This document shows positions 6,411-19,484 of a stretch of DNA of 20,761 nt, in pieces. The notes beneath the pieces were generated by a model, which did not search any database, had not been told where the DNA came from, and saw only the letters and a program-made list of their open reading frames with translations. Source of the stretch: a virus; IMG/VR virus record IMGVR_UViG_3300043411_000262, positions 1 to 20,761 of that record. The stretch is one strand, 5' to 3'. Position 1 is the stretch's first letter. Every line of letters begins with the position of its first letter. The position numbers were made by a program, and so were the translations under genes.

Positions 6411-8081
6411 TTAGTCTATTCTACCTAGAATACGCAAGAATTCTTCACGCTTGGCCTTACGGGCGGCGTCGGTCATCACACCCTGACTGTATCCACCCAA
6501 TGCACGATTGGCAAGACTGCCGGATTCGCTGCTACTGGTGGTGTAGACAATGCTCAAATAATTGCCGTTGGCAGATTCAGTTAATCGGCGGAGTTGAGCT
6601 TCAGTCAATCGAACATTGCCAATGTCGGCAGTGGTCAAGATGGCTTTGGCTTGGGTGGCATACTGATTATTCATGAGCTTTTCAACGGCTGCACCAGTCA
6701 CATCCACGCCATTGGCGGCGGCCTGTTCCTGTACCAAACTCAATAAGTAATCCTTGCCATATTGAATGTCTTGGCTTTCCTTCACAAAACGTTTGGCAGC
6801 TTCACGCACACCAGCCGGATCAACAGCAACCGCGCCAGTGTCGAAGTCAAGCGTGGTCAATCCCATTTCATAATCAAGAATTTGTTGGGCTAATGGGCCG
6901 CGACTGCTATCCAAAAAGGCATTGAGACTTTCGGGCGTCGTGCCGGGTGATCCACTATCAGCTTCAATGTAACCGTTGAGGGTGGCAACTTGACGCGGTG
7001 CATTGGGAATAGACGTAAAAGGATTGTTGTTTGTGCCTTTTAAAGCATCCGATAATGATCCTTCTCGCAGCATGTTTCCAAAAGTAGGGTCTTTGTACTG
7101 ATGCACAAAGTCATCAAGTTTGACCTGCCCATTCTTGAATGCTTCCCACTTGGCAGGGGAGGCGGCGAAGGCGGCTTGCTGTTGTTGCCGTTCAGGGGGC
7201 AGCGAATCAAACCAATCCTTGCCGGATTGAATGTTGAGGGTGCGGCCTTTGACCTGCACAACACAGGTGCAGCGGCCAGAATGATGATCATCGACGCGGG
7301 GGACGGGATCGCCTTCATTGCGCTGGCCTGACCAAATGACCGTTCCATGCAGTGCCACACAGGATAGACAGGTGCGATCATCAAGGGCGGCGATGCGAAT
7401 CACCTCGTCAATGATGTCCACGTTGGCATTCTGATTGGCGGCGGTGGCGTCCCGATAGCTGGTGAGCTGAAGGGTACGCAGTAAATTATTGGCCTGATAA
7501 CCGGGGAGGTTTTCGGTCATGTTGCGGATCTGCGAGGCGGTGCGCAGCGGTGACCATCCGGAGGCGATGCCACGAATGGCTTGATTGTTGATGATGTCCA
7601 CAATGTCGGTGCCGTATTTGGTGAGTTGTGCTGCCCACGCGTCCGATTGGGAGTATTGAATGAGTCGGGCGACGGCTTCAGGATCAGGCTTATTCCACGT
7701 GATGCCAATGCGGGCGAGCTGCGCATCAGTCATGCCGGGAAGGGCAAGCTGGCGTTGGATACGGGCGGCGGCGTCCATGCCGGTTTGCTGTACAGCTTCG
7801 GACGCACCATCCACCACACGCCCATTGACCGTCATAGTGTCTTCAAGGTCAGCCAGTAAAGCACGCAAGACGGCATTATCAGGCGTCAGCTTTTCACCGG
7901 CGTCCATCAAGCGCTGCACTTCTTTATCCAATTCAGTGAGGCGTTGGCTAATGAGGCCGGAATTGGTGGAGCGAGCAACCGCGTTTAAGGTGGGCTGCAC
8001 CGCGGAATTGTATCCGCGATCGAGCAGCCCATTGATCAAGTCTTGAACGGTGCCCTGACGTTGAGGGCGATTCGCTACCAT
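6411..8081 (-). CDS. MuF-type head morphogenesis / minor head protein with long C-terminal extension
   Basis: Proteins of the MuF/SPP1 gp7 family bind the portal, enter the capsid in small number and affect DNA ejection. The signature is at residues 234-273: DDRTCLSC, then H245 in ALHGTVIW, then VDDHHSGRCTC, the D-x-R-T-C-x-x-C ... H-x-G-R-C-x-C pattern that probably binds zinc. Residues 1-230 are mainly helical. Residues about 280-556 form an extension not covered by the signature; with it the protein is longer (556 aa) than many family members. The start ATG 8081 shares a base with the stop of the upstream cement-like gene (TAATG), so the two are coupled. The minus orientation is unusual, since portal and MuF genes are normally adjacent and co-directional. 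Confidence 0.88.
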   Translation of the reverse strand: MVANRPQRQGTVQDLINGLLDRGYNSAVQPTLNAVARSTNSGLISQRLTELDKEVQRLMDAGEKLTPDNAVLRALLADLEDTMTVNGRVVDGASEAVQQTGMDAAARIQRQLALPGMTDAQLARIGITWNKPDPEAVARLIQYSQSDAWAAQLTKYGTDIVDIINNQAIRGIASGWSPLRTASQIRNMTENLPGYQANNLLRTLQLTSYRDATAANQNANVDIIDEVIRIAALDDRTCLSCVALHGTVIWSGQRNEGDPVPRVDDHHSGRCTCVVQVKGRTLNIQSGKDWFDSLPPERQQQQAAFAASPAKWEAFKNGQVKLDDFVHQYKDPTFGNMLREGSLSDALKGTNNNPFTSIPNAPRQVATLNGYIEADSGSPGTTPESLNAFLDSSRGPLAQQILDYEMGLTTLDFDTGAVAVDPAGVREAAKRFVKESQDIQYGKDYLLSLVQEQAAANGVDVTGAAVEKLMNNQYATQAKAILTTADIGNVRLTEAQLRRLTESANGNYLSIVYTTSSSESGSLANRALGGYSQGVMTDAARKAKREEFLRILGRID

Positions 8082-8491
8082 TAGGCGTGAACGGTGCTAC
8101 CGCGCTTGCAAATGAGTTCGACGACTCCAGACGCTACGCCCACGAACAACACATTGACATAATCGCCAGTGCCCAGATCAGCCCACGGGGCGATGCCACC
8201 GGGTGTGAGTGATTGCACGTAGATAGTGCCAGCGACGGGGGTTGCACCGATCTGAATGACCGCGCCGGGTGGGGCAACGAAGATGTCACGACCACTTACG
8301 CCACCATCGATACACACGCCAGCAACAACGCTTTCAAGGTCGGTATCACCATCAGCCAGCTTATAGGTGTTGGTGGTGGTGTCGAGATAAACGGTTTGAC
8401 CTGCCGTGATGGTTGCACCAGCCTTGCCAGTGATGGGACGTACGCCTGACGACCACAAGACGCTGGCGGCGGTTACGCTTATATCAGCCAT
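8081..8491 (-). CDS. Capsid cement/decoration-like protein (136 aa, minus strand)
   Basis: The protein resembles DUF2190-type head decoration proteins: a beta-rich chain with TITAGQTVYLDTTTNTYKLA, then a VVAGVCIDGG strand, a proline turn (VAPPGAVIQIG), a LTPGGIAPWADLG loop and two closing strands (NVLFVGVASG, VVELICKRG). Such proteins bind the outside or axes of the capsid and stabilise it; the family call is from pattern, not a search. The start ATG 8491 is chosen for GGAGGAA eight bases upstream; an open extension to 8638 has no such site and an atypical cysteine/histidine-rich composition. It is the first gene of the minus-strand pair and is coupled to the MuF gene. Confidence 0.7.
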   Translation of the reverse strand: MADISVTAASVLWSSGVRPITGKAGATITAGQTVYLDTTTNTYKLADGDTDLESVVAGVCIDGGVSGRDIFVAPPGAVIQIGATPVAGTIYVQSLTPGGIAPWADLGTGDYVNVLFVGVASGVVELICKRGSTVHA

Positions 8492-8719
8492 TGGGAATTC
8501 CTCCATAAACAACAATTGTGTATCACGATCATGGCAAGGGTGGAAGTGTTTAGCGCACAGAAGGCGCGTTATCAGAACCAATGACATTTGCGCGTTAGGT
8601 GGGGGAGGGTTGGGAAATACTTGGGAAAACATGAACACGCGTACTTAGAAGGGCCGTAAGGCTGTCAGCGGTACGCCCAACACAAGACACGATGGCGAGA
8701 TGCCACAGGAGCAGGCGAG
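8492..8719. promoter_or_regulatory. Divergent intergenic region with short direct repeats
   Basis: This 228-bp gap separates the minus-strand cement/MuF pair from the plus-strand scaffold gene and should contain promoters for one or both directions. I see no convincing -35/-10 pair on either strand. It does hold TTGGGAAA twice (8610-8617 and 8621-8628), exactly 11 bp apart, and GCGCGTTA twice (8564-8571 and 8590-8597). Such spacing on one face of the helix would suit an activator site, but both could be chance. The scaffold ribosome site AGGAG is at 8707-8711. Confidence 0.4.
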
Positions 8720-9878: not shown

Positions 9879-10781
9879 ATGATTACCGCAAGTCAATTCA
9901 GCACGCTCCTAATACCGGGGATTTATCATCACTTTGAACTGGGCATGAGCTTGGTTCCGAGCCTTCGCGGCCAACTGTTTAACGTTCAGGGTTCAAACCT
10001 TGCGGCAGAAAATGGTGTTGGCTTGGGTGGTGTTTCGCCGGAAGCGTGGGATCAGTACAAAAGCAACCGTACTAAGGGACGGATCACCTTCAGCCAACTT
10101 TATACCCAAACTTATACGCATGTTGAGTACCCCGTGCAATTCGTCATTGAGAAGAAACTTCTTCAATTTGATCAGTACGGCAAAATCAACCAGTATGCAC
10201 GTCGTTTGGGTTTGAGCGCTGAACAAAAAATGGAACTGGATGCCGCAAGCTTGCTCAACAATGCTTTTAGCACCAGCTACAACTTCAGCGATGGCAAACC
10301 GCTCATCAGCGCTACCCATCCACGTAACCCAGATAGCAGCGGCACGTACAGCAACCGAGGCACGTCAGCATTGACGGCAGATGCTGTCAGCGCCACGCGT
10401 GTGGCAATGATGCACACCAAGGATGACAAGGGCAATGAAATCGGGATTATGCCGAACGAACTTTGGGTTCCCCCAGAACTTGAAGACTCGGCTATCAAGA
10501 TTACCCAATCCCTGCGTGATCCGGGCAATGCGAACAATGACGCCAACGCGCAAGGCAACGGGCGATGGAAAGTCATTCCGTGGCTGCGACTGACTGACAC
10601 CAACAATTGGTTCATGGCCGATGGTGTCATGCGCAACGAAACCACTAACTGGTACAACGTCGGCAATAGTGAGCCGATGGTGGTGGATGAAACCACAACC
10701 GAGATCGTCTATGAAACCAAACTGTTTTACAGCTTTGGCGTTGATGATTGGCGTGCGTGGTACGGGCACGAAGTCGCTTAG
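9879..10781 (+). CDS. Major capsid protein (HK97 fold, Mu gpT-like)
   Basis: This 300-aa protein is placed after scaffold and cement and has the strongest ribosome site in the head region (AAGGAGA, 9863-9869). Family-like segments are RITFSQLYTQTYTHVEYPVQ (69-88, the E-loop/spine-helix entry), AEQKMELDAASLLNNAF (114-130, spine helix), DGKPLISATHP (138-148), IMPNELWVPPELEDSAIKI (190-208) and a C-terminal FSFGVDDWRAWYGHE-like end. These match Mu gpT-type coat proteins with the HK97 fold. Length fits a coat without a cleaved scaffold domain, in keeping with a separate scaffold gene. A terminator follows 27 nt later. Confidence 0.9.
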   Translation: MITASQFSTLLIPGIYHHFELGMSLVPSLRGQLFNVQGSNLAAENGVGLGGVSPEAWDQYKSNRTKGRITFSQLYTQTYTHVEYPVQFVIEKKLLQFDQYGKINQYARRLGLSAEQKMELDAASLLNNAFSTSYNFSDGKPLISATHPRNPDSSGTYSNRGTSALTADAVSATRVAMMHTKDDKGNEIGIMPNELWVPPELEDSAIKITQSLRDPGNANNDANAQGNGRWKVIPWLRLTDTNNWFMADGVMRNETTNWYNVGNSEPMVVDETTTEIVYETKLFYSFGVDDWRAWYGHEVA

Positions 10782-10807
10782 GTTCTGATAAGTCAACTTA
10801 TTTCATG

Positions 10808-10836
10808 TCACCCCGTCACGATGGCGGGGTGATTTT
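10808..10836 (+). terminator. Terminator/attenuator after the major capsid gene
   Basis: TCACCCCG pairs with CGGGGTGA; two further pairs (one G-U) extend the stem to about ten around an ACGAT loop. TTTTG follows at 10833. It would cap the abundant capsid transcript and let only part of transcription pass to the neck and tail genes, unless antitermination applies. Confidence 0.75.
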
Positions 10837-10865
10837 GTATCTGATGTTGTAAATGAGGTGCAAAG

Positions 10866-11255
10866 ATGGCAGTTACGGATTTTGGAGCGGCGTTGACCGC
10901 TGATGTTCTTCAAGGCCAGATTCAACACGAACAACAGGTGATGAGCGCAGACGGCGCAATCACGATCAAGAGCGGTAAGGTGATCATTACCAAGGGCAGC
11001 GCGGCGGCGATCACATTGGCAGCGCCTACGGCGGGATTATTGGCAGCCGGTGGGGACGATGGCAAAGAGTTGGAAGTGTATTCAACTACGGCATTTGCCC
11101 ACACGGTGACTATCGCCAACGGTTTGGCGGGTGCTGGAGCAGGGGCAGACGTGGGCACATTCGGTGCAGCGGCGGCTAATCGTGTGACGTTGCAAGCTTA
11201 CAATGGCGCTTGGTATCTGAGCGGTGGCGCGGCTGTCGGTGTCACGTTCGCCTAA
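10866..11255 (+). CDS. Beta-rich small structural protein (129 aa)
   Basis: The start is ATG 10866 after GAGGTG. The protein is rich in alanine, glycine, threonine and valine and reads as alternating short strands: GAITIKSGKVIITKG, AAITLAAPTAG, KELEVYSTTAFAHTVTIANG and RVTLQAYNGAWYLSGG. This sandwich pattern ending in a TLxAxNGxWxLxSG element is common in small head or fibre proteins encoded just after the major capsid gene. It may be a further decoration protein or a trimeric fibre-like module. The exact role is unknown. Confidence 0.65.
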   Translation: MAVTDFGAALTADVLQGQIQHEQQVMSADGAITIKSGKVIITKGSAAAITLAAPTAGLLAAGGDDGKELEVYSTTAFAHTVTIANGLAGAGAGADVGTFGAAAANRVTLQAYNGAWYLSGGAAVGVTFA

Positions 11256-11285
11256 CTCCAATTATTCGGGAACAAGGATCGCAAT

Positions 11286-11591
11286 ATGACTCAGGTTAAC
11301 GTCCATGATATGCACAAAGCAATTGAAGGCGCTGGCGTGCCACTAGATTGTGTTCGCTGGAACCGCGAATTGAAAACTATTGAAGTACAGTTTTTACGTG
11401 GTGCCACCGACGATCAAAAGGCTTTAGCGCAAAAGATTGTTGATGAATGGGATCAAGCAGCGTTAGACACTGCGAAAAGCCGTTCATTTGATGATTTGCC
11501 AAGCTCTAAAGTTATTGTTGAAGCAAAAACAATCAAAGAATTGCAGTCAATGGCTTTACAACTGAGGTCATATATCGACGCCCAACGCTAA
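11286..11591 (+). CDS. Small protein of unknown function in head region (101 aa)
   Basis: I do not recognise this protein. The start is ATG 11286 with AAGGA at 11274-11278. It has a mixed build: an N-terminal helix (VHDMHKAIEGAG), a beta hairpin (CVRWNRELKTIEVQF) and two helices (TDDQKALAQKIVDEWDQAAL and KTIKELQSMALQLRSYI). Nothing marks an enzyme. The conserved-looking hairpin RWNRELKTIEVQF followed by a helix suggests a compact alpha/beta domain. Its third-codon composition is more A/T-rich than that of its glycine- and alanine-rich neighbours. Position between capsid and neck genes suggests a virion or assembly role. Confidence 0.65.
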   Translation: MTQVNVHDMHKAIEGAGVPLDCVRWNRELKTIEVQFLRGATDDQKALAQKIVDEWDQAALDTAKSRSFDDLPSSKVIVEAKTIKELQSMALQLRSYIDAQR

Positions 11592-11623
11592 GTAATTAGC
11601 TTGAGAAAAGGAGTTATCGAATC

Positions 11624-12001
11624 ATGGCGATTAGACGAACAGTAGTAACGGCGACGGGTGCAGCGGGCGGCGCGGGAACAGCAACCGCAACGGCAAACAC
11701 GACCACGCCTGTAGATGGTGAGATCATCGGTGTGCATCTGGCATACCTTGACGCTCCACCAGCGGCGACGTGTGATGTGACGTTGGTAGAGGCGGGGGTA
11801 TCACCTGCTCAAACCATTTTGAGCATCAGCAACGCAGCAACAGACGGTTGGTTTTATCCGATGCAGCAAGCCAAGAATACGGCAGGGACGGACATCAGCG
11901 GCATGGGGCGTGAAATATACGTGAGTGCCAACCTGACGTTGACGATTGCACAAGCGAATAATGCGGACGGTGTGACCGCAACCATTCTTTGGAAAGACTG
12001 A
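11624..12001 (+). CDS. Beta-rich small structural protein (125 aa)
   Basis: ATG 11624 follows AAAAGGAG at 11606-11613. The chain is A/T/G-rich with repeated strands (RRTVVTATGAAG, GEIIGVHLAYLDAPP, TCDVTLVEAGV, ANLTLTIAQANN, VTATILWKD), suggesting a beta sandwich. It resembles the general type of phage head or fibre accessory proteins. No known domain can be named from the sequence. Its stop abuts the next gene's start by 2 nt, so it shares a transcript with the head-tail adaptor. Confidence 0.65.
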   Translation: MAIRRTVVTATGAAGGAGTATATANTTTPVDGEIIGVHLAYLDAPPAATCDVTLVEAGVSPAQTILSISNAATDGWFYPMQQAKNTAGTDISGMGREIYVSANLTLTIAQANNADGVTATILWKD

Positions 12002-12003
12002 TT

Positions 12004-12372
12004 ATGAGCTTTTCCTACGATCTTGTAACACCCACTGATGTGACCCGCGTAAGGAGGCACATCAGTGACACGGAAGAGGCCACGGCTATCTATTCAGATG
12101 AAGAGATTAGTTTCATTCTGTCTGAAGAGGGCACGGTGGCAAAGGCAGTGATCGCCTGCATTAAACAGGTGATCGCCAAGCTGGCGGCTGAACCCAACAT
12201 GAAGGCCGATTGGTTGCAGATTGATTGGGCCAGTGCAATCGCCGCATGGAAGGGATTGTTGGCAGAGAAGAAACAGGAATTCGGGTTGGGGTGGCAGAGT
12301 TCGAGCGGTGGGCAGCACAGCTATCGTCCAGACACGCTGCAAAAAGTTGAACCGGATTACGGCGAAGAATAA
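12004..12372 (+). CDS. Head-tail adaptor/connector (gp6/gp15-like)
   Basis: Adaptors form the first ring below the portal after packaging. The N-terminal segment, with VTPTDVTRVRRHISDTEEA then YSDEEISFILSEEG, followed by a long helix (VAKAVIACIKQVIAKLA), matches the usual adaptor pattern of tDv..vR..I.Dt......sDEeI..fl and helices packing against the portal. The length of 122 aa is normal. ATG 12004 is taken as start because it follows the previous stop directly; an in-frame ATG at 11989 lies inside the previous gene and gives five extra residues. The closure partner is not adjacent but lies at 15118, after the inserted fibre genes. Confidence 0.8.
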   Translation: MSFSYDLVTPTDVTRVRRHISDTEEATAIYSDEEISFILSEEGTVAKAVIACIKQVIAKLAAEPNMKADWLQIDWASAIAAWKGLLAEKKQEFGLGWQSSSGGQHSYRPDTLQKVEPDYGEE

Positions 12373-12392
12373 CCATTATCGGGACTGATTAG

Positions 12393-13967
12393 ATGCCAAC
12401 ACTGAGTATGACAGCCAGCGCCACGAGTCACATGGGCAGCATTGCCAATGATTCAGGGCGTAATGTCACCAACAGCAGCCCGGTAAGCCTGAACCCCAAT
12501 CCCGTTTCACCGGGTTCACATGGCGGCGGTGATGAGTATTCGATGGGCGCACGCTTCACAACCGATAGCAATATTACCCCCGGATTGACGATCAGCAGCG
12601 CGTTTTACAAGATGAAAGCACAAGCCTCATGGAATGCGTCGCCGGATGTGATCGCGTATCTGGTGAGCGCCCACGCAGCGGATAATGCGGCTGTACTGGC
12701 AACCACCAACGGCAATTTAAACATCACGACACGCCCGCGCACAACGGCGGTGAGCGGTGTGTGGACGCAAACAAACATCACCGTTGACACTGAATACTCG
12801 ATTGATGTCACCAGCGTGATTCAAGAGTTGGTCAACCGTGGGGGATGGGCAGCGGGTAATGCCATTGTCATGCTGGTGGATACCAATTCCACAACTACAG
12901 CAGGGCAATGGCAGGATTACTACGGCACAGGGGCGAATGTGCCGGTGCTGGACATTACGTATGCTTCAGGGGGCACGACCTACACCAGCACGTTGACAGG
13001 CGGCGGCGCGGGTGTGGGGGCGATTGCCAAGCAAACCAACAAGGCAGCAACGGGCGCGGGTGCTGGCGTAGGGGCGTTGGCTAAACAGTCGATAAAGACA
13101 CTTATCGGAACCGGTGCAGGTATTGGGACGCTGGTCAAACAGATCAACAAAGCGTTAGTTGGTGAAGGTGCTGGCGTTGGGACGCTCATCAGACAGATCA
13201 ACAAGGTGTTGGTTGGTGAGGGTGCAGGCGTCGGGTCGATTGCCAAGCAGACGAATAAGGCGTTTACAGGCGCGGGTGATGGCAGCGGCACACTTTCAAC
13301 AGCCGCGATATTCACCAAGCTATTGACGGGCGGCGGCGGTGGTGTTGGGGCGTTGATCAAACAAGCCAATAAAGCCTTGACTGGAAATGGCGCTGGCGTC
13401 GGTGGATTGATTAAGCAGATTAACAAGTTGCTGACGGGCGCGGGTGCTGGCAGCGGCGTGTTGGACGCGGTGCTGAATTCGGGCGCGATCACTTATCTGA
13501 TGGAGTTGACAGGCGGCGGCGCGGGTGTAGGGGCGTTGGTCAAGCAAACCAACAAACTGATTAGCGGGGCGGGGGCTGGCGTCGGTGGGCGGATCAAGCA
13601 GATTAACAAGCTGCTGACAGGCGCGGGGGAGGGGAGCGGTGCGTTAAACACAAGCCGAGTCTATACCTTACTTTTAACAGGCGCGGGCGCTGGAGTGGGC
13701 GCTATCAGTAAGCAAATTAATAAATTAGTGAGCGGCGGGGGCAGCGGCACGGGGACGATTAGCAAGCTCATACAGCGCATTTTGAACGGTGCAGGCAGCG
13801 CGATCGGCAGTTTAATCGGGAGCCTGACGGGGTTAGATGTACCGGGGCATGTGGTGGCGCGGGATGCTGCAACCGGACGGGTTAGTAGTTTGGATCGGGT
13901 AATTTACAGCGTAACGGCAACAGACCGGGCGCTTTACAACGTGACAAGCAGTGACGAGGAGAGTTAA
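12393..13967 (+). CDS. Glycine-rich repeat protein with DNRLRE-like N-terminal domain (probable fibre/adhesin)
   Basis: Residues 1-190 form a beta-rich domain resembling DNRLRE-type carbohydrate or cell-wall-associated domains, judged by FTTDSNITPGLTISSAFYK and SIDVTSVIQELVNRGGW. Residues 202-480 are about fifteen units of an 18-residue repeat, consensus TGAGAGVGxLxKQINKxL, beginning near 202, 220, 238, 256, 274, 292, 312, 330, 348, 373, 391, 409, 429, 447 and 465. Every third unit has a GSG core and usually a longer insert. The tail (483-524, VPGHVVARDAATGRVSSLDR onward) is unlike the repeats and may be an attachment or oligomerisation segment. No signal peptide is evident, as expected for a virion protein. 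A fibrous appendage is inferred; the binding target is unknown. Confidence 0.75.
   Translation: MPTLSMTASATSHMGSIANDSGRNVTNSSPVSLNPNPVSPGSHGGGDEYSMGARFTTDSNITPGLTISSAFYKMKAQASWNASPDVIAYLVSAHAADNAAVLATTNGNLNITTRPRTTAVSGVWTQTNITVDTEYSIDVTSVIQELVNRGGWAAGNAIVMLVDTNSTTTAGQWQDYYGTGANVPVLDITYASGGTTYTSTLTGGGAGVGAIAKQTNKAATGAGAGVGALAKQSIKTLIGTGAGIGTLVKQINKALVGEGAGVGTLIRQINKVLVGEGAGVGSIAKQTNKAFTGAGDGSGTLSTAAIFTKLLTGGGGGVGALIKQANKALTGNGAGVGGLIKQINKLLTGAGAGSGVLDAVLNSGAITYLMELTGGGAGVGALVKQTNKLISGAGAGVGGRIKQINKLLTGAGEGSGALNTSRVYTLLLTGAGAGVGAISKQINKLVSGGGSGTGTISKLIQRILNGAGSAIGSLIGSLTGLDVPGHVVARDAATGRVSSLDRVIYSVTATDRALYNVTSSDEES
12996..13832 (+). repeat. Coding repeat array, 54-bp period, about 15 units
   Basis: The array encodes the 18-aa units listed for the gene at 12393-13967. 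Units near 12996 and 13512 share long nearly identical DNA runs around GGCGGCGGCGCGGGTGT, pointing to recent recombination between copies, while other units differ at many silent positions. Three units form a larger 54-61-residue period with five successive triplets. Copy number is therefore likely to vary between relatives. Confidence 0.85.
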
Positions 13968-13969
13968 AG

Positions 13970-14674
13970 ATGTTGGGTGAACAAGTTGGTAAAGGTGCAG
14001 GCAGCGGCGAATTAACCATCAAGGTGATTCGCGGCGGTGGGAAGAAGCGGATTAACTTGCTGTCACAGTTGATGGCGTGGTTCTGGGCATGGTGGGCGTC
14101 AACCTATGTGGCACGCTGGAAGGTCAAGAACGCGTTGACCACACCCTTCCTTATTGGATGGGCGAATCATCACGCGGCAAAAGTGGCTGGCAAGTTGCTC
14201 GGCTGGAACATCGGCATATCAGAGCTACGGGCAGAGCTGATCAAAGCCGATGGCACACGCATCAATTACGGCGTGGTGAGTCATCGTGTGGTAACGAATG
14301 CTTTTATCGCCGCACTAATTGACCATTTGGATAACGCTGGCGCAACGATTTCGGCGTACAAGTATCATGGCGTTGGAACGGGCACGACAGCAGAAGCGGC
14401 GGGTGATACGGCGCTGGTGACTGAAACCACAACCGAATTGACGGTGAACAGCACACGAGCGACCGGCACACAGACGCAACCAACAGCGGCGGACTACCGA
14501 TCAACAGCCACACAAACCTTTGACGGCACGGCCGCAATCACCGAGCATGGCATTTTCAACCAAGCGGCAACAGGCGGCGGCGGGTTGATGGATCGCAGTT
14601 TGTTTAGCGCGATCAACGTGGTCAGTGGCGACGGCATCCAATTCACATACACCTATACGCAAACCGGTAGTTAA
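13970..14674 (+). CDS. Phage tail/fibre-type structural protein (234 aa)
   Basis: The N-terminus (VGKGAGSGEL, residues 6-15) copies a repeat unit of the preceding protein. It is followed by a basic, tryptophan-rich stretch (MAWFWAWWASTYVARWK, near 35-51) that could be membrane-active or a packing surface. Residues about 75-234 look like a domain common in phage structural proteins: ISELRAELIKADGTRINYG, YKYHGVGTGTTAEAAGDTAL, TEHGIFNQ..., LMDRSLFSAINVVSGDGI and a final FTYTYTQ strand. This domain is often found beside fibre or tail genes; its biochemical role is not known to me. The start ATG 13970 has AGGAG at 13957-13961 and lies 2 nt after the previous stop, so the two are co-translated. Confidence 0.72.
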   Translation: MLGEQVGKGAGSGELTIKVIRGGGKKRINLLSQLMAWFWAWWASTYVARWKVKNALTTPFLIGWANHHAAKVAGKLLGWNIGISELRAELIKADGTRINYGVVSHRVVTNAFIAALIDHLDNAGATISAYKYHGVGTGTTAEAAGDTALVTETTTELTVNSTRATGTQTQPTAADYRSTATQTFDGTAAITEHGIFNQAATGGGGLMDRSLFSAINVVSGDGIQFTYTYTQTGS

Positions 14675-14676
14675 TC

Positions 14677-14991
14677 ATGGCAACAACCGTCAACGAATAT
14701 GATGTGGGGGATGCAGTACGGGTAACCTGTTCAACTGCGACTGATGCAGGCGTGCCGACTGATCCCACGGGGTTGACGGTGCGCTATAAGGTGGCAGGTG
14801 GAACGCCGGTTGTCAAAACGTATGGGGTTGACTCGGAAGTGGTCAAAGACTCGTCAGGTGAATTCCACTTTGACATTGCGGTAACCAGTGACATGAATGG
14901 CGCATTGGTGAAATATCGGTGGGTGGCAACTGGCGCTGTTGCGGGTGCGGATGAAAAAGCATTCCAAGTGCGTCAAAGCGCTTTCTACTAA
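14677..14991 (+). CDS. Ig-like small structural protein (104 aa)
   Basis: The ATG at 14677 follows the previous stop by 2 nt. The sequence reads as one seven-strand beta sandwich: DVGDAVRVTCSTAT, PTGLTVRYKVAGG, PVVKTYG, EVVKDSSGEFHFDIAV and ALVKYRWVATG, then an EKAFQVRQSAFY closing strand. The pattern of a leading DVGDxVRV, a middle KDSSGEFHFDI and a YRWxATG element is typical of Ig-like phage structural proteins that accompany fibre or tail genes. It completes the three-gene cassette starting at 12393. It may be displayed on the virion surface; partner unknown. Confidence 0.7.
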   Translation: MATTVNEYDVGDAVRVTCSTATDAGVPTDPTGLTVRYKVAGGTPVVKTYGVDSEVVKDSSGEFHFDIAVTSDMNGALVKYRWVATGAVAGADEKAFQVRQSAFY

Positions 14992-15013: not shown

Positions 15014-15087
15014 AAACCCCACCCCTAATCCCTCCCCATAGCACGGGGAGGGGAATGAAGATGTGCGATGAAAAAGGGTAGGGGTTT
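15014..15087. repeat. GC-rich nested palindromic element
   Basis: An inner stem, CCCTCCCC (15030-15037) with GGGGAGGG (15045-15052) around a seven-base loop, is enclosed by an outer stem AAACCCC (15014-15020) with GGGGTTT (15081-15087). CCCT/AGGG pairing continues inside the outer stem. The design resembles intergenic palindromes spread through some bacterial genomes. It fills the gap between the fibre cassette and the head-closure gene and could cap the upstream transcript, since T residues follow the outer stem. Confidence 0.6.
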
Positions 15088-15117
15088 TACAGTGATATTG
15101 ATGGGCGGGAGGGCTTG

Positions 15118-15498
15118 ATGCCGCGCTTTAGTTCTCGGACATTGGCGATTGTGCAACGAAACGTGAACGAGATGCTCACGGATATTTGCACGATTAGTCG
15201 TGAGACGGGGGCGACGGGTCAAATGGGCGAACCGCTGCATGTGCTGGAGGTTGTGGCGTCAGAGGTGGCGTGCCGGGTGATCCGAGCGCGTACACCTAGC
15301 AGCAGCGCCAGCCAAGTGGTGGGGAGCCAAGAGGCGATGGTGGAAGTGTACCGGTTGATTTGTCCTTCCGGAACGGCGTTTGTGACTGATGATGTGGTGA
15401 CGACTAGCGATGGCAGCGTGTACCAAGTTGTGAACGTTGAGGATAAGTTGACAGATGGCGCTTTTGCCGGGGCGGTAATGACACGGGTGCGGACGTAA
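15118..15498 (+). CDS. Head closure / head-tail joining protein (SPP1 gp16 / HK97 gp7-like)
   Basis: Closure proteins form the second ring of the connector and stop DNA leaking out. The 126-aa chain has the expected arrangement: a beta barrel of LTDICTISRETGATGQMGEP, then SEVACRVIRAR, YRLICPSG and a VTTSDGSVYQVVNVEDK strand pair, as in phage head-tail joining proteins. The start ATG 15118 follows GGGAGGG at 15107-15113; TTG 15115 is a less likely start. It is split from the adaptor gene (12004) by the fibre cassette. Neck genes continue without interruption downstream. Confidence 0.8.
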   Translation: MPRFSSRTLAIVQRNVNEMLTDICTISRETGATGQMGEPLHVLEVVASEVACRVIRARTPSSSASQVVGSQEAMVEVYRLICPSGTAFVTDDVVTTSDGSVYQVVNVEDKLTDGAFAGAVMTRVRT

Positions 15499-15534
15499 TC
15501 CGCGCCTGCCTTTCCGTGAGCATGAGGGGAAGCA

Positions 15535-15951
15535 ATGGCAGACATGAAAGTGGTGTTGGACACCAAGGGCTTGCAGCAATTAATCCGCACTGAACCGGAC
15601 AAGGTTGAGCGCTGGTTAAAAGGTGTTGCTGAAGCGATGGTGACTGACATCAAACTGAGCATGAACACATCGCCACCCGGACAAAGTTACACACGCGGCG
15701 GCATTACGCATGTTGCCAGCCAGCCCGGTAATCCTCCCAACGTGGACATCGGGACATTGAGAGCGTCGATCCGGCAAGAAAAGGCTGGAAGCATGACGTA
15801 CCAGATTAGCGATGGCGTAGAGTATGGGCTTTATTTGGAAGACGGCACGGAGAACATGGCACCACGTCCATTCATGCAACCGGCGTTTGATCGTGCCAGC
15901 AAGACGGTGGGCGAAGATGCGGCGCGTAATCTGGGACTTGAGGACGTATGA
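15535..15951 (+). CDS. HK97 gp10-like neck/tail completion protein
   Basis: This 138-aa protein carries the hallmark pairs of the HK97-gp10/SPP1 gp16.1-type family: SQPGNPPNVDIGTLRASI at about 62-79, and EYGLYLEDGTENMAPRPFMQ at 96-115, followed by PAFDRA. The N-terminal half holds a helix (KVERWLKGVAEAMVTDIKLS). The protein acts at the head-tail interface in joining tails to filled heads. ATG 15535 follows GAGGGGAAGC. The next start overlaps its stop (ATGA), so the neck proteins are made in step. Confidence 0.88.
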   Translation: MADMKVVLDTKGLQQLIRTEPDKVERWLKGVAEAMVTDIKLSMNTSPPGQSYTRGGITHVASQPGNPPNVDIGTLRASIRQEKAGSMTYQISDGVEYGLYLEDGTENMAPRPFMQPAFDRASKTVGEDAARNLGLEDV

Positions 15952-16388
15952 CGGTTGGAGCGCACGAGGCGTTGAATCAAGTGCTGATTGCCCATCTACG
16001 GAATGCATCGCCATTGTGGGGCGTGAAGGTGCAGCCGTTAGAGATTGCCAGCTCGAACCTAGAAAAGCCGTATGTGGTTTTCTTTCCGGCCAGCAACGGG
16101 CGCTTTTTGGGAAATGCCAACAAGAAACGGGCGCAAATCGTCATGAGCATCAAGGGCGTGGCGAAAGACATGGCATCGGCGCTGGCGATTCAGGAAGCGA
16201 TCACCGGCTTGTTGGATGACAGCGGGTCACAGGACATCAGCCCACGGTTGCCTTATCACGCGGGGTGGGTGGTCACAACGGTGACTGAAGATCGGGCGAT
16301 CTGGTTACAAGAACAATTCGCCGGTGCGGAAAATATTTATCACGCCGGGCATCAATATCAAGTAAACATGGAGCGACGAAATGGCTGA
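15948..16388 (+). CDS. Tail terminator / tail completion protein (gp17/DUF3168-like)
   Basis: The protein is assigned by order (directly after the gp10-like protein and before the tail tube), length (146 aa) and shape. It has an N-terminal helix (AHEALNQVLIAHLRN), a KPYVVFF strand, a central hydrophobic SIKGVAKDMASALAIQEAI helix, and beta strands near GWVVTTVTEDRAIW and YQVNMER at the end, as in terminator proteins that cap the tail tube and bind the neck. The ATGA overlap with the upstream gene is evident. The last 8 nt overlap the tube gene. Identity to a specific family is inferred, not searched. Confidence 0.75.
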   Translation: MTVGAHEALNQVLIAHLRNASPLWGVKVQPLEIASSNLEKPYVVFFPASNGRFLGNANKKRAQIVMSIKGVAKDMASALAIQEAITGLLDDSGSQDISPRLPYHAGWVVTTVTEDRAIWLQEQFAGAENIYHAGHQYQVNMERRNG

Positions 16389-16803
16389 ATATAACGGCAA
16401 TGCGATCTATTTGCGGATGAACGCGATCAATGTTGAATCTCTGTGGAAGAACATGGAGATTTCCCAAAGCATCGGTGATGAAGATGTGACCGCTGGAGCA
16501 GGGGCAGTGTGGGAAGAACACGCTGGCAAGCTGCGCGGCGCATCGGCAAAGATCACTCTGGCATACAACGACACTCAGGCAGCAACCGACATGGCAGCAC
16601 TGTACACGGCCAATTCGGTCATTGCGGTGGTATATGGTCCGGAAGGCAGCACCGTCGGCAAGCCCTGTGATTCGCGTAGTTGGTTGGTCACTGGCGTGTC
16701 TGGCCCATCCACCAACGTGGAAAAGTCGATGGTGGTGTTGGAATTTGATCTGGTGGCGACCGGAACCCCAACCAAGAATATTTTTGCTGGCGAAACGTTC
16801 TAA
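16381..16803 (+). CDS. Major tail tube protein
   Basis: The tube protein polymerises as hexameric rings around the tape measure. The 140-aa chain fits small siphophage tubes: short strands NAIYLRMNAINVESLWKNM, then the AGKLRGASAKITLAYND segment, SVIAVVYGPEG and SMVVLEFDLVATGTP, alternating strands around one helix. Its place between tail terminator and tail chaperone is the canonical one. It starts at ATG 16381 with GGAG upstream, overlapping the terminator gene by 8 nt. Tube subunits are needed in many copies; no special regulation is visible here. Confidence 0.8.
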   Translation: MAEYNGNAIYLRMNAINVESLWKNMEISQSIGDEDVTAGAGAVWEEHAGKLRGASAKITLAYNDTQAATDMAALYTANSVIAVVYGPEGSTVGKPCDSRSWLVTGVSGPSTNVEKSMVVLEFDLVATGTPTKNIFAGETF

Positions 16804-17546: not shown

Positions 17547-19484
17547 ATGGCAACACAAGTCGCAAGTTTGTTCGGTGTCCTAAGCCTTGATGACAAGGAT
17601 TTTAAGCGTGGTGTAAAAGACGCTGATAAGGATATGACGGGCATAGGTGATCGACTGAAAGGGCTAGGCGGTAATCTCACCAGCCTCGGCAGTGACTTGA
17701 CGATGGTGGGCGCTCCCTTTCTGGCATTTGCAGGGCTAGCCGTGAAATCGGCAGCGGATGCAGAGGCAGGAACAGCACAGTTAGAAGCGGTGTTGAAGTC
17801 AACGGGCGGCACGGCGGGTGTTACTAAAGATTCAGCGCTGGCATTGGCTTCAAAGCTAGAGAGCTTAACAACCTTCAGTGATGATGCGGTGCTAAGTGCT
17901 GAAAACATGCTGCTGACGTTCACGAACATCGGCAAAGATGTGTTTCCTGATGCCACGATGACCACATTGAACATGAGCAAAGCACTAGGGCAAGACCTTA
18001 AAAGCAGCTCTATTCAATTGGGCAAGGCGTTAAATGATCCGGTGGCGGGCATCACGGCGCTTTCACGAGTGGGTGTGACGTTTACCGAACAGCAAAAAGC
18101 CCAAATTGAAACGATGGTTAAAGCTGGCGATGTCGCCGGTGCCCAGAGGCTTATTCTCGAAGAATTGGGACGCGAATTCGGTGGATCAGCTACAGCAGCC
18201 GCGGATACATTCAGCGGGCGGCTTGAACAGATGGCAAATAAGTTTGACAACTTAATGGAGGCGATTGGCGAGAAGCTGATGCCAGTTGCCGAACAATTTA
18301 TTGATTGGGTAGGGCAAGCCATAGAGTGGTTTACAACACTTGACCCCAATATTCAAAACATCATTCTGGGCGTGGTCACCTTCATGGGGGCGCTGGCGGT
18401 TATTGGTCCAGTGATTGCAGCGGTAGGCGTTGGATTAACGGCGATCGGCGGCATTCTGGGTGCAATCGGTGGCGCAATTGCGTTTGTGTTATCGCCAATC
18501 GGCTTGGTGATCGCGGCGGTGGTGGGGTTGGCAGCGGCCTACTTCACAAACTTTGGCGGCGTGCGTGATTTCATTGATAACAATGTGCGGCCAATCCTTG
18601 AAAACGTATTCAATTGGATGGCTGGCGTTTGGGAAAACACGATTAAGCCGGGATTGGAAGCGCTGCGTATATGGTTTGTCGAAACGGCATTCCCTGCAAT
18701 CGGTAAGGCGGTCGAAGATTTCAAGACGAACATCTTTGAACCAGTCGCCACATTCATCGGCAACGTGTGGGAAAACATCATTGGTCCCGGACTTGAGAAA
18801 TTACGCGAATGGTTCATTGATACGGCATTCCCTGCAATCGGGAAAGCGGTCAATGATTTCAAGACGAACATCTTTGAACCGGTTGCCACGTTTATTGGGG
18901 ACATTTGGACACTTGTAGGCAAGGGACTAGGACTATTCTTCGATTGGATGGCAGCACCGGGCGGCGGGTTGGATCAGATTAAAGTAGCGCTGAACAACTT
19001 TAAAACCAACGTGTTAGAGCCAGTGATTAAGTTCATCCAAGATATTTGGACGAAGGTTCAGCCATTCCTAGACAGTTTCAAATCTGGAATCGCAGGGGTC
19101 TTTAATTGGATCAAAGACAATGTCATTCAACCGATTATTGATAAGGTTCAGTGGTTGATCGACACAATCCACAAGTTAGCTGGAGAACAACCGACCAGTG
19201 GGCAGATGATGCAGAATGGTTTGCCAGCCAACATGCAGATGAGCGTACCGGGGCGAGCGGGGGGCGGATCGGTGATGGGGGGTAGGCCGTATCTGGTAGG
19301 GGAGCAGGGGCCGGAACTGTTCACACCGAGTTCAAGCGGCAACATCAGCACGGCGGGTGAAACGGCGGGGATGATGGGCGGGTGGACGATCAACGGGGGG
19401 ATTCACATCCATGCCAATTCAGAAGCGGAAGGGCAATCGGCAATGCGGGGCGCGTTGGCAGCGGCACGAGCGAGGGGCTATTAA
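17547..19484 (+). CDS. Tail tape measure protein
   Basis: The tape measure sets tail length and is ejected ahead of the DNA. The 645-aa chain shows the usual order: an N-terminal helix-rich region (residues 1-260, with SLFGVLSLDDKDFKRGVKDA and DPVAGITALSRVGVTFTEQQ, typical of the family), a hydrophobic membrane-spanning-like segment (272-332), a repeat zone (361-499), and a C-terminus with GRPYLVGEQGPELFTPSSSG (579-598), common to many tape measures. Three 46-47-residue repeats start at 361, 407 and 453, the first two nearly identical (TAFPAIGKAV, DFKTNIFEPVATFIG). At roughly 1.5 angstrom per residue a tail near 95-100 nm is expected. No lysozyme or peptidase motif is evident. The start ATG 17547 has GGAAG upstream. 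Confidence 0.93.
   Translation: MATQVASLFGVLSLDDKDFKRGVKDADKDMTGIGDRLKGLGGNLTSLGSDLTMVGAPFLAFAGLAVKSAADAEAGTAQLEAVLKSTGGTAGVTKDSALALASKLESLTTFSDDAVLSAENMLLTFTNIGKDVFPDATMTTLNMSKALGQDLKSSSIQLGKALNDPVAGITALSRVGVTFTEQQKAQIETMVKAGDVAGAQRLILEELGREFGGSATAAADTFSGRLEQMANKFDNLMEAIGEKLMPVAEQFIDWVGQAIEWFTTLDPNIQNIILGVVTFMGALAVIGPVIAAVGVGLTAIGGILGAIGGAIAFVLSPIGLVIAAVVGLAAAYFTNFGGVRDFIDNNVRPILENVFNWMAGVWENTIKPGLEALRIWFVETAFPAIGKAVEDFKTNIFEPVATFIGNVWENIIGPGLEKLREWFIDTAFPAIGKAVNDFKTNIFEPVATFIGDIWTLVGKGLGLFFDWMAAPGGGLDQIKVALNNFKTNVLEPVIKFIQDIWTKVQPFLDSFKSGIAGVFNWIKDNVIQPIIDKVQWLIDTIHKLAGEQPTSGQMMQNGLPANMQMSVPGRAGGGSVMGGRPYLVGEQGPELFTPSSSGNISTAGETAGMMGGWTINGGIHIHANSEAEGQSAMRGALAAARARGY
18627..19043 (+). repeat. 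Tandem 138-bp repeats in the tape measure gene
   Basis: Copies at 18627-18764 and 18765-18902 encode almost identical 46-residue blocks and are also very similar in DNA (for example GATTTCAAGACGAACATCTT in both). A third copy, 18903-19043, is diverged (47 residues; NNFKTNVLEPVIKFIQD still matches). A whole number of codons per copy means gain or loss of a unit would change tail length without breaking the frame. Confidence 0.85.

Follow-up and report, generated by a model that had tools for sequence, protein, structure and literature searches.

The neck passage structure proteins of lactococcal phages are a hotspot of diversity: their genes lie in the connector region, a conserved N-terminus is joined to an exchanged, non-homologous C-terminal part, and some of them carry carbohydrate-binding domains (Smug et al. 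2023, PMC10684548). This pattern, in which the N-terminus is kept and the remainder is exchanged, has been reported for receptor-binding proteins as well (PMC10684548). Fibrous shafts made from simple repeats are known from other viruses. The triple beta-spirals of adenovirus and reovirus consist of short beta repeats with a Gly/Pro bend (PMC7565637), and in the triple-stranded beta-helix of T4 gp5 the motif VxGxxxxx recurs every 8 residues (PMC4576200).

The stretch of viral DNA analysed here (the window, 20,761 nucleotides) is a 20.8 kb record with a structural module in which TerL (2640), portal (4051), head protein genes, major capsid (9879) and several small genes precede the repeat gene, and a phrog_5417 gene (13970), a small gene (14677), adaptor, Neck1, tape measure (17547) and Dit (19485) follow it. 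The tape measure and Dit genes indicate that the phage is long-tailed and siphovirus-like. A minus-strand head morphogenesis or minor head gene (6411-8081) and a small gene (8081-8638) are situated between the plus-strand portal and major capsid genes; this stretch (6411-8638) is an unusual inversion inside the structural module. The tape measure gene (17547-19484) contains an internal tandem duplication at about 18650-18950 (ETAFPAIGKAVEDFKTNIFEPVATFIGNVWENIIGPGLEKLREWF / IDTAFPAIGKAVNDFKTNIFEPVATFIGDIW). The repeat gene is placed in the head-tail connector region, with the following features:

11989-12372, plus strand: upstream gene, phrog_1732 (unknown function), connector-like by position only
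12393-13967, plus strand: open reading frame of the repeat protein, the putative fibre shaft, 524 aa
12393-12974, plus strand: N-terminal domain, aa 1-194, 81% identity in sister phage L211
12957-15059: block exchanged relative to L211, delimited by a break in nucleotide homology
12993-13835, plus strand: repeat array, fifteen units (A units 18 aa, B units 20-25 aa)
13263-13322, plus strand: first B unit (unit 6), FTGAGDGSGTLSTAAIFTKL
13431-13505, plus strand: second B unit (unit 9), 25 aa, LTGAGAGSGVLDAVLNSGAITYLME
13614-13673, plus strand: third B unit (unit 12), LTGAGEGSGALNTSRVYTLL
13836-13964, plus strand: C-terminal segment, aa 482-524, 43 residues, no match
13970-14674, plus strand: neighbour gene, phrog_5417 family (weaker match to phrog_4176, tail fibre)
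14677-14991, plus strand: small gene within the exchanged block, no family match
15115-15498, plus strand: head-tail adaptor, phrog_763
15535-15951, plus strand: tail completion or Neck1 protein, phrog_5

The N-terminal domain is presumed to be the virion-proximal anchor of the protein, because it is the conserved part. It had no match in Pfam and only one viral relative was found; it may resemble DNRLRE/jelly-roll domains. The C-terminal segment is a possible tip or capping piece. An antisense open frame of 170 aa with APTPAP-type repeats spans part of the array (12980-13492, minus strand) and is most likely a side effect of codon usage in the repeats.

A preliminary description of this DNA had proposed fifteen 18-residue glycine-rich units at 12996-13832. 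The array is genuine, and all fifteen units were located, although the measured limits are slightly wider (12993-13835, residues 201-481). The units start at residues 201, 219, 237, 255, 273, 291, 311, 329, 347, 372, 390, 408, 428, 446 and 464, giving spacings of 18, 18, 18, 18, 18, 20, 18, 18, 25, 18, 18, 20, 18 and 18; unit 15 is degenerate. Self-identity (residues 196-490) was 0.397 at a shift of 18 and 0.322 at a shift of 56, both above all of 2000 shuffles, whose best value at any shift from 12 to 61 had a mean of 0.159 and a maximum of 0.203. The GSG cores and longer inserts that had been noted near residues 292, 348 and 409 are found in units 6, 9 and 12 (inserts of +2, +7 and +2). These divergent units set long periods of 56 and 61 residues, in agreement with the second-level period of 54-61 residues given earlier. 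Since the first five units show no superperiod, the claim that every third unit differs holds from unit 6 onward only. Codons differ in 60% of same-residue pair comparisons at conserved positions, so the array is old and maintained as protein rather than a product of recent DNA duplication.

Several familiar repeat designs do not account for this period. Glycine occupies positions 3, 5, 7 and 9 of the A units, and position 10 in two of them, with none at 11-18; it does not recur at every third residue of the array as in collagen. Shifts of 6, 9 and 12, which would reveal the sub-period of a left-handed beta-helix hexapeptide or an RTX nonapeptide roll, were outside the 15 highest, as was the shift of 8 corresponding to the VxGxxxxx octapeptide of T4 gp5. 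Searches of the repeat region against Pfam, PHROGs, NCBIfam and PDB sequences gave no family match. The repeat, which the preliminary description did not recognise either, belongs to an uncatalogued family among phage fibre shafts.

A tblastn search and DNA scans for two patterns (a pair of KQxNK copies 54 bases apart; LxFxG in three copies) located relatives in about ten phage contigs, all told. The repeat is present in L003, L002, L028, L017, L204, L014/L030, L029, L105 and L203, in 7 to 45 copies, and in each of these the leave-one-out profile score exceeded the protein's own reversed, shuffled and column-permuted controls. For the window the profile gave 142 bits against 59 for the reversed sequence, 31.7 for the best column-permuted and 5.7 for the best shuffled one; reversed sequences still score well, the unit being almost symmetric in its composition. 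Part of the profile score therefore reflects periodic composition, and the bits should not be taken at face value. L003 is the podovirus MW202615.1, whose repeat ORF (998 aa, L003:4716-7712) is missing from the GenBank annotation. What the record shows there is a 'hypothetical protein' of 603 aa (UOF79353.1) together with several small CDS, annotations that lie mostly on the opposite strand. The cultured Rhizobium phage RHph_TM16 (gene EVB27_046, protein QIG66716.1) was matched by tblastn with L017 (38%, 2e-7), and its translation, read by eye, has longer B-like units at 4, 7, 11 and 14 (e.g. LAVAAVTTVAALTPATLRRT, LLVTATTTASALATKAFLKV). Because it failed to match the repeat profile, we regard it as a probable member only. 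Two uncharacterised phage proteins retrieved from BFVD with Foldseek, A0A6J5M2L1 and A0A6J7XE87 (probability 0.98-1.00, 22-27% identity), may be further members.

Other candidates were dropped. L018, at 20 bits, stayed below the permuted maximum of 26.6. The profile was not matched by the 21-residue repeats of L211, nor was it passed by any of the 93 matches from a pattern scan of genome contigs. When 798 bacterial genomes from two phyla were searched with the profile, without a positive control, one weak match only emerged, a prophage fibre of coiled-coil type with its own 18-residue NEVNRAT repeats, which we judged to be unrelated.

Comparison of the relatives shows which features of the array are general. 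The A unit common to them alternates in/out over positions 1-11, with small residues at 3 and 9, and contains a K-Q-x-N-K segment. In weighted columns from ten families, position 1 is L/V/I, 3 is G/A (88%), 5 is L/V, 9 is G/A (90%) and 11 is L/I, mostly with T/S/A between the hydrophobic positions; these are followed by K/R at 13 (96%), Q at 14 (67%), N at 16 (56%) and K/R at 17 (96%). B units are longer by at least two residues, have no KQxNK and in many cases end in [KRH]-x-[FVI]-[LYT]. The window follows this grammar: its A units show the alternation, the small residues and [KR]Q-x-[NS]-K at 13-17, and units 6, 9 and 12 are longer, lack KQxNK and are spaced at 3-4 units. The same spacing occurs in L003, L029, L204, L017, L014 and RHph_TM16, with exceptions in L002 (15, 8, 12) and L028 (7). 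Of 20 gaps between B units, 15 measured 3 or 4 units, against a maximum of 13 in 20,000 random placements, a count that takes in the by-eye reading of RHph_TM16 and is inflated by block duplication, the gaps within one protein not being independent. The spacing of 18 residues and the A/B grammar are kept across relatives at about 25-40% identity. The three-unit superperiod described earlier is thus one case of a looser rhythm of 3-4 units. The glycine core was likewise described correctly for the window phage, where it alternates with an amphipathic segment, but relatives carry TLTPAG, STSLVP, TVTTTA or ALSFIG in its place; it is a local variant peculiar to this phage and not the defining feature. 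The real content of the finding is the A/B grammar together with the cassette exchange described below.

The sister phage L211 aligns to the window at 10188-12956 (87.6%) and again at 15060-16503 (96.9%), and between 12957 and 15059 no nucleotide match was found. In the window this block holds the repeats, the phrog_5417 gene and the gene at 14677. Its counterpart in L211 comprises the gene for the N-terminal domain, here with another short end, a pair of small genes, a protein of 555 aa carrying 21-residue repeats, a virion structural gene of phrog_3758 and one more small gene. The N-terminal domain of L028 recurs in L211, where it precedes the different 21-residue array. Since the exchange took place between near-identical phages, the block is likely to be a host-contact element. 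Other repeat arrays, apparently unrelated, occur in comparable structural genes at L211:3924-5591, L005:5290-8091, L006:2476-5202 and L007:6409-7605 (repeats GTSSVTDGTDTQSGAGTLALV, SGTATESADTSSGTVTVTLPA, GLATEVDTALALAAVQ and AGLSATIGAA, respectively), which suggests a pool of interchangeable repeat shafts.

The explanation we prefer, with a probability of roughly 0.6, is that the array forms a shaft, of beta structure and probably oligomeric, in a virion fibre at the neck or collar that is exchangeable and contacts the host. Such a fibre would consist of the N-terminal domain, the repeat shaft and a short C-terminal end. Each 18-residue A unit would adopt beta structure, with hydrophobic or small residues alternating with Thr, Ser or Ala over positions 1-11; the small residues at 3 and 9 would permit bends, and K-Q-x-N-K would make a surface turn. 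Units of this kind would stack into a shaft, perhaps a trimeric one, whose length is set by copy number, and the B units, two to seven residues longer and without KQxNK, would form regular bulges every 3-4 units. The shaft is exchanged between close phages in a cassette that also takes in the remainder of the protein and the two genes after it, and the N-terminal domain is retained, much as in neck-passage proteins and in tail fibres that probe the host surface.

Attachment at the neck or collar is suggested by gene order alone. A phrog_5417-family gene lies no more than two genes from the repeat gene in six loci (window, L003, L028, L204, L014 and L029), which makes its product a likely assembly partner; these neighbours share an alignment that also includes L002, and nothing useful was found for the family in PDB. 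In L002 a Gly_rich_2 tail-fibre gene (PF21722, phrog_863; L002:1086-2327) stands between the neighbour-family gene and the repeat gene. The idea that the N-terminus of the neighbour acts as one repeat unit that docks into the shaft was rejected (p 0.03 to 0.3 for 18 columns against shuffles). The N-terminal domains of the relatives include lectin-like Laminin_G_3 domains in L204, L029 and L105 (below cut-off in L014) and an Ig-like domain, also below cut-off, in L003, and some match virion structural PHROGs. Against a neck position, the cassette adjoins terminase genes in L003, L017 and L028. The suggestion of a virion fibre with a long axial period made in the preliminary description thus gains indirect support from the position in the connector region, the fibre- or virion-family neighbour, the lectin-type domains and the recurrence of B units every 3-4 units in several otherwise dissimilar phages.

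The same context bears on whether a shaft of this design might belong to a head decoration or head fibre instead. The N-terminal domains of L002 (phrog_10356) and L204 (phrog_8510) match head-and-packaging virion PHROGs and the neighbour in L003 has a secondary match to the head protein phrog_240. In the window, however, the repeat gene lies just ahead of connector genes, and a podophage tail-fibre entry exists in Pfam for the neighbour family, so that a place on the head is possible but doubtful.

With respect to the fold of the putative neck fibre, a beta structure is rather probable, and about the same holds for a role of the array as a shaft. Proline at position 7 of the A unit, and Gly, Asp or Pro tolerated at 15 in relatives, favour turns and disfavour helix. 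AlphaFold models of the window (11 alignment rows; pLDDT 43, pTM 0.28) and of L204 (13 rows; pLDDT 62, pTM 0.45) both had strands where the alignment covers the units and helices where there are few or no rows. The column pattern is compatible with the two antiparallel strands and Gly/Pro turn of a triple beta-spiral, but the two models are not confident. An axial rise of 15 A takes 17 residues in a beta-spiral and 31 in a triple beta-helix (PMC7565637), so that residues 201-481 would extend over about 25 nm and 14 nm, respectively; as a solenoid, 15 coils at 4.8 A each would give about 7 nm. Foldseek searches of PDB and BFVD gave no significant match (none with E <0.001).

It might be argued that the repeats form a monomeric beta-solenoid, with one unit per coil and bends at 3 and 9, making an adhesin-like surface and not an oligomeric shaft. 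The middle of the L204 model does show two strands per unit, broken at positions 2-3 and 8-10; the first model weakly resembles the adhesin 3pet (Foldseek probability 0.97, E 0.42) and the second the beta-helical acyltransferases LpxD and GlmU. Against this, AlphaFold usually models true solenoids confidently, even from thin alignments, and both of these models were of low confidence; no Foldseek E-value was below 0.01, and Lys at 13 and 17 would fall in a coil strand. We consider a solenoid unlikely, and an oligomeric spiral is preferred to it only tentatively. The low model confidence, the glycine-rich composition and the strongly variable copy number would also suit a low-complexity linker, flexible or semi-ordered, in which replication slippage and not a fold preserves the pattern. 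This is quite improbable, as the 60% codon divergence at conserved residues opposes recent slippage and the strict spacing and A/B grammar persist in distant relatives. An alpha-helical shaft, with five turns of helix per 18 residues and a design like that of many coiled-coil tail fibres of phages, finds some encouragement in the AlphaFold helices at KQINKLL segments without alignment rows and in the weakly matching NEVNRAT prophage fibre, but it is quite improbable in view of Pro at position 7 or 9 in L028, L014, L203, L029 and L003, of cores rich in Thr and Val, and of the Gly, Asp or Pro allowed inside KQxNK.

The repeat offers a sequence signature for a probable fibre shaft that current annotation overlooks, as in MW202615.1, where the gene is left unannotated and a CDS is drawn on the opposite strand. 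That one rhythm persists over cores of quite different residues reveals which parts of the unit are important, and bears on how simple repeats make long beta fibres. A probable member is present in a cultured Rhizobium phage, which makes the role directly testable. We would only tentatively go further and propose an undescribed class of phage beta-fibre, in which A and B units alternate quasi-regularly at a pitch of 3-4 units, unit order encodes length and surface pattern, and the cassette moves between siphoviruses and podoviruses.

How does this protein compare with known systems? Polyglycine-II phage adhesins and collagen-like fibres are also high in glycine, but glycine in the window repeat stands at alternate core positions, is replaced in relatives and forms no Gly-X-Y triplet. 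T4 gp5 is likewise a phage beta shaft with a simple repeat, the period being 8 there and 18 here. With the triple beta-spirals the window repeat shares in/out alternation, and it would also share short beta repeats with a Gly/Pro bend and length by copy number; it differs in having 18 residues per unit, a KQxNK segment, quasi-regular longer B units and no PDB sequence match, and its trimeric state is putative. The podophage GP4 fibre I gp80 (PF23140) and phrog_5417 are families of the neighbour gene and not of the repeat protein, and the PF23140 cut-off is approached by the L003 copy only (26.9 bits, cut-off 27). The neck passage structure proteins are similar in having a connector-region gene, a conserved N-terminus and an exchanged C-terminus, without homology as judged from PHROG searches, where the window repeat protein had no match. 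In contrast to them, the exchanged part in the window opens with a long shaft of regular repeats and extends over two more genes.
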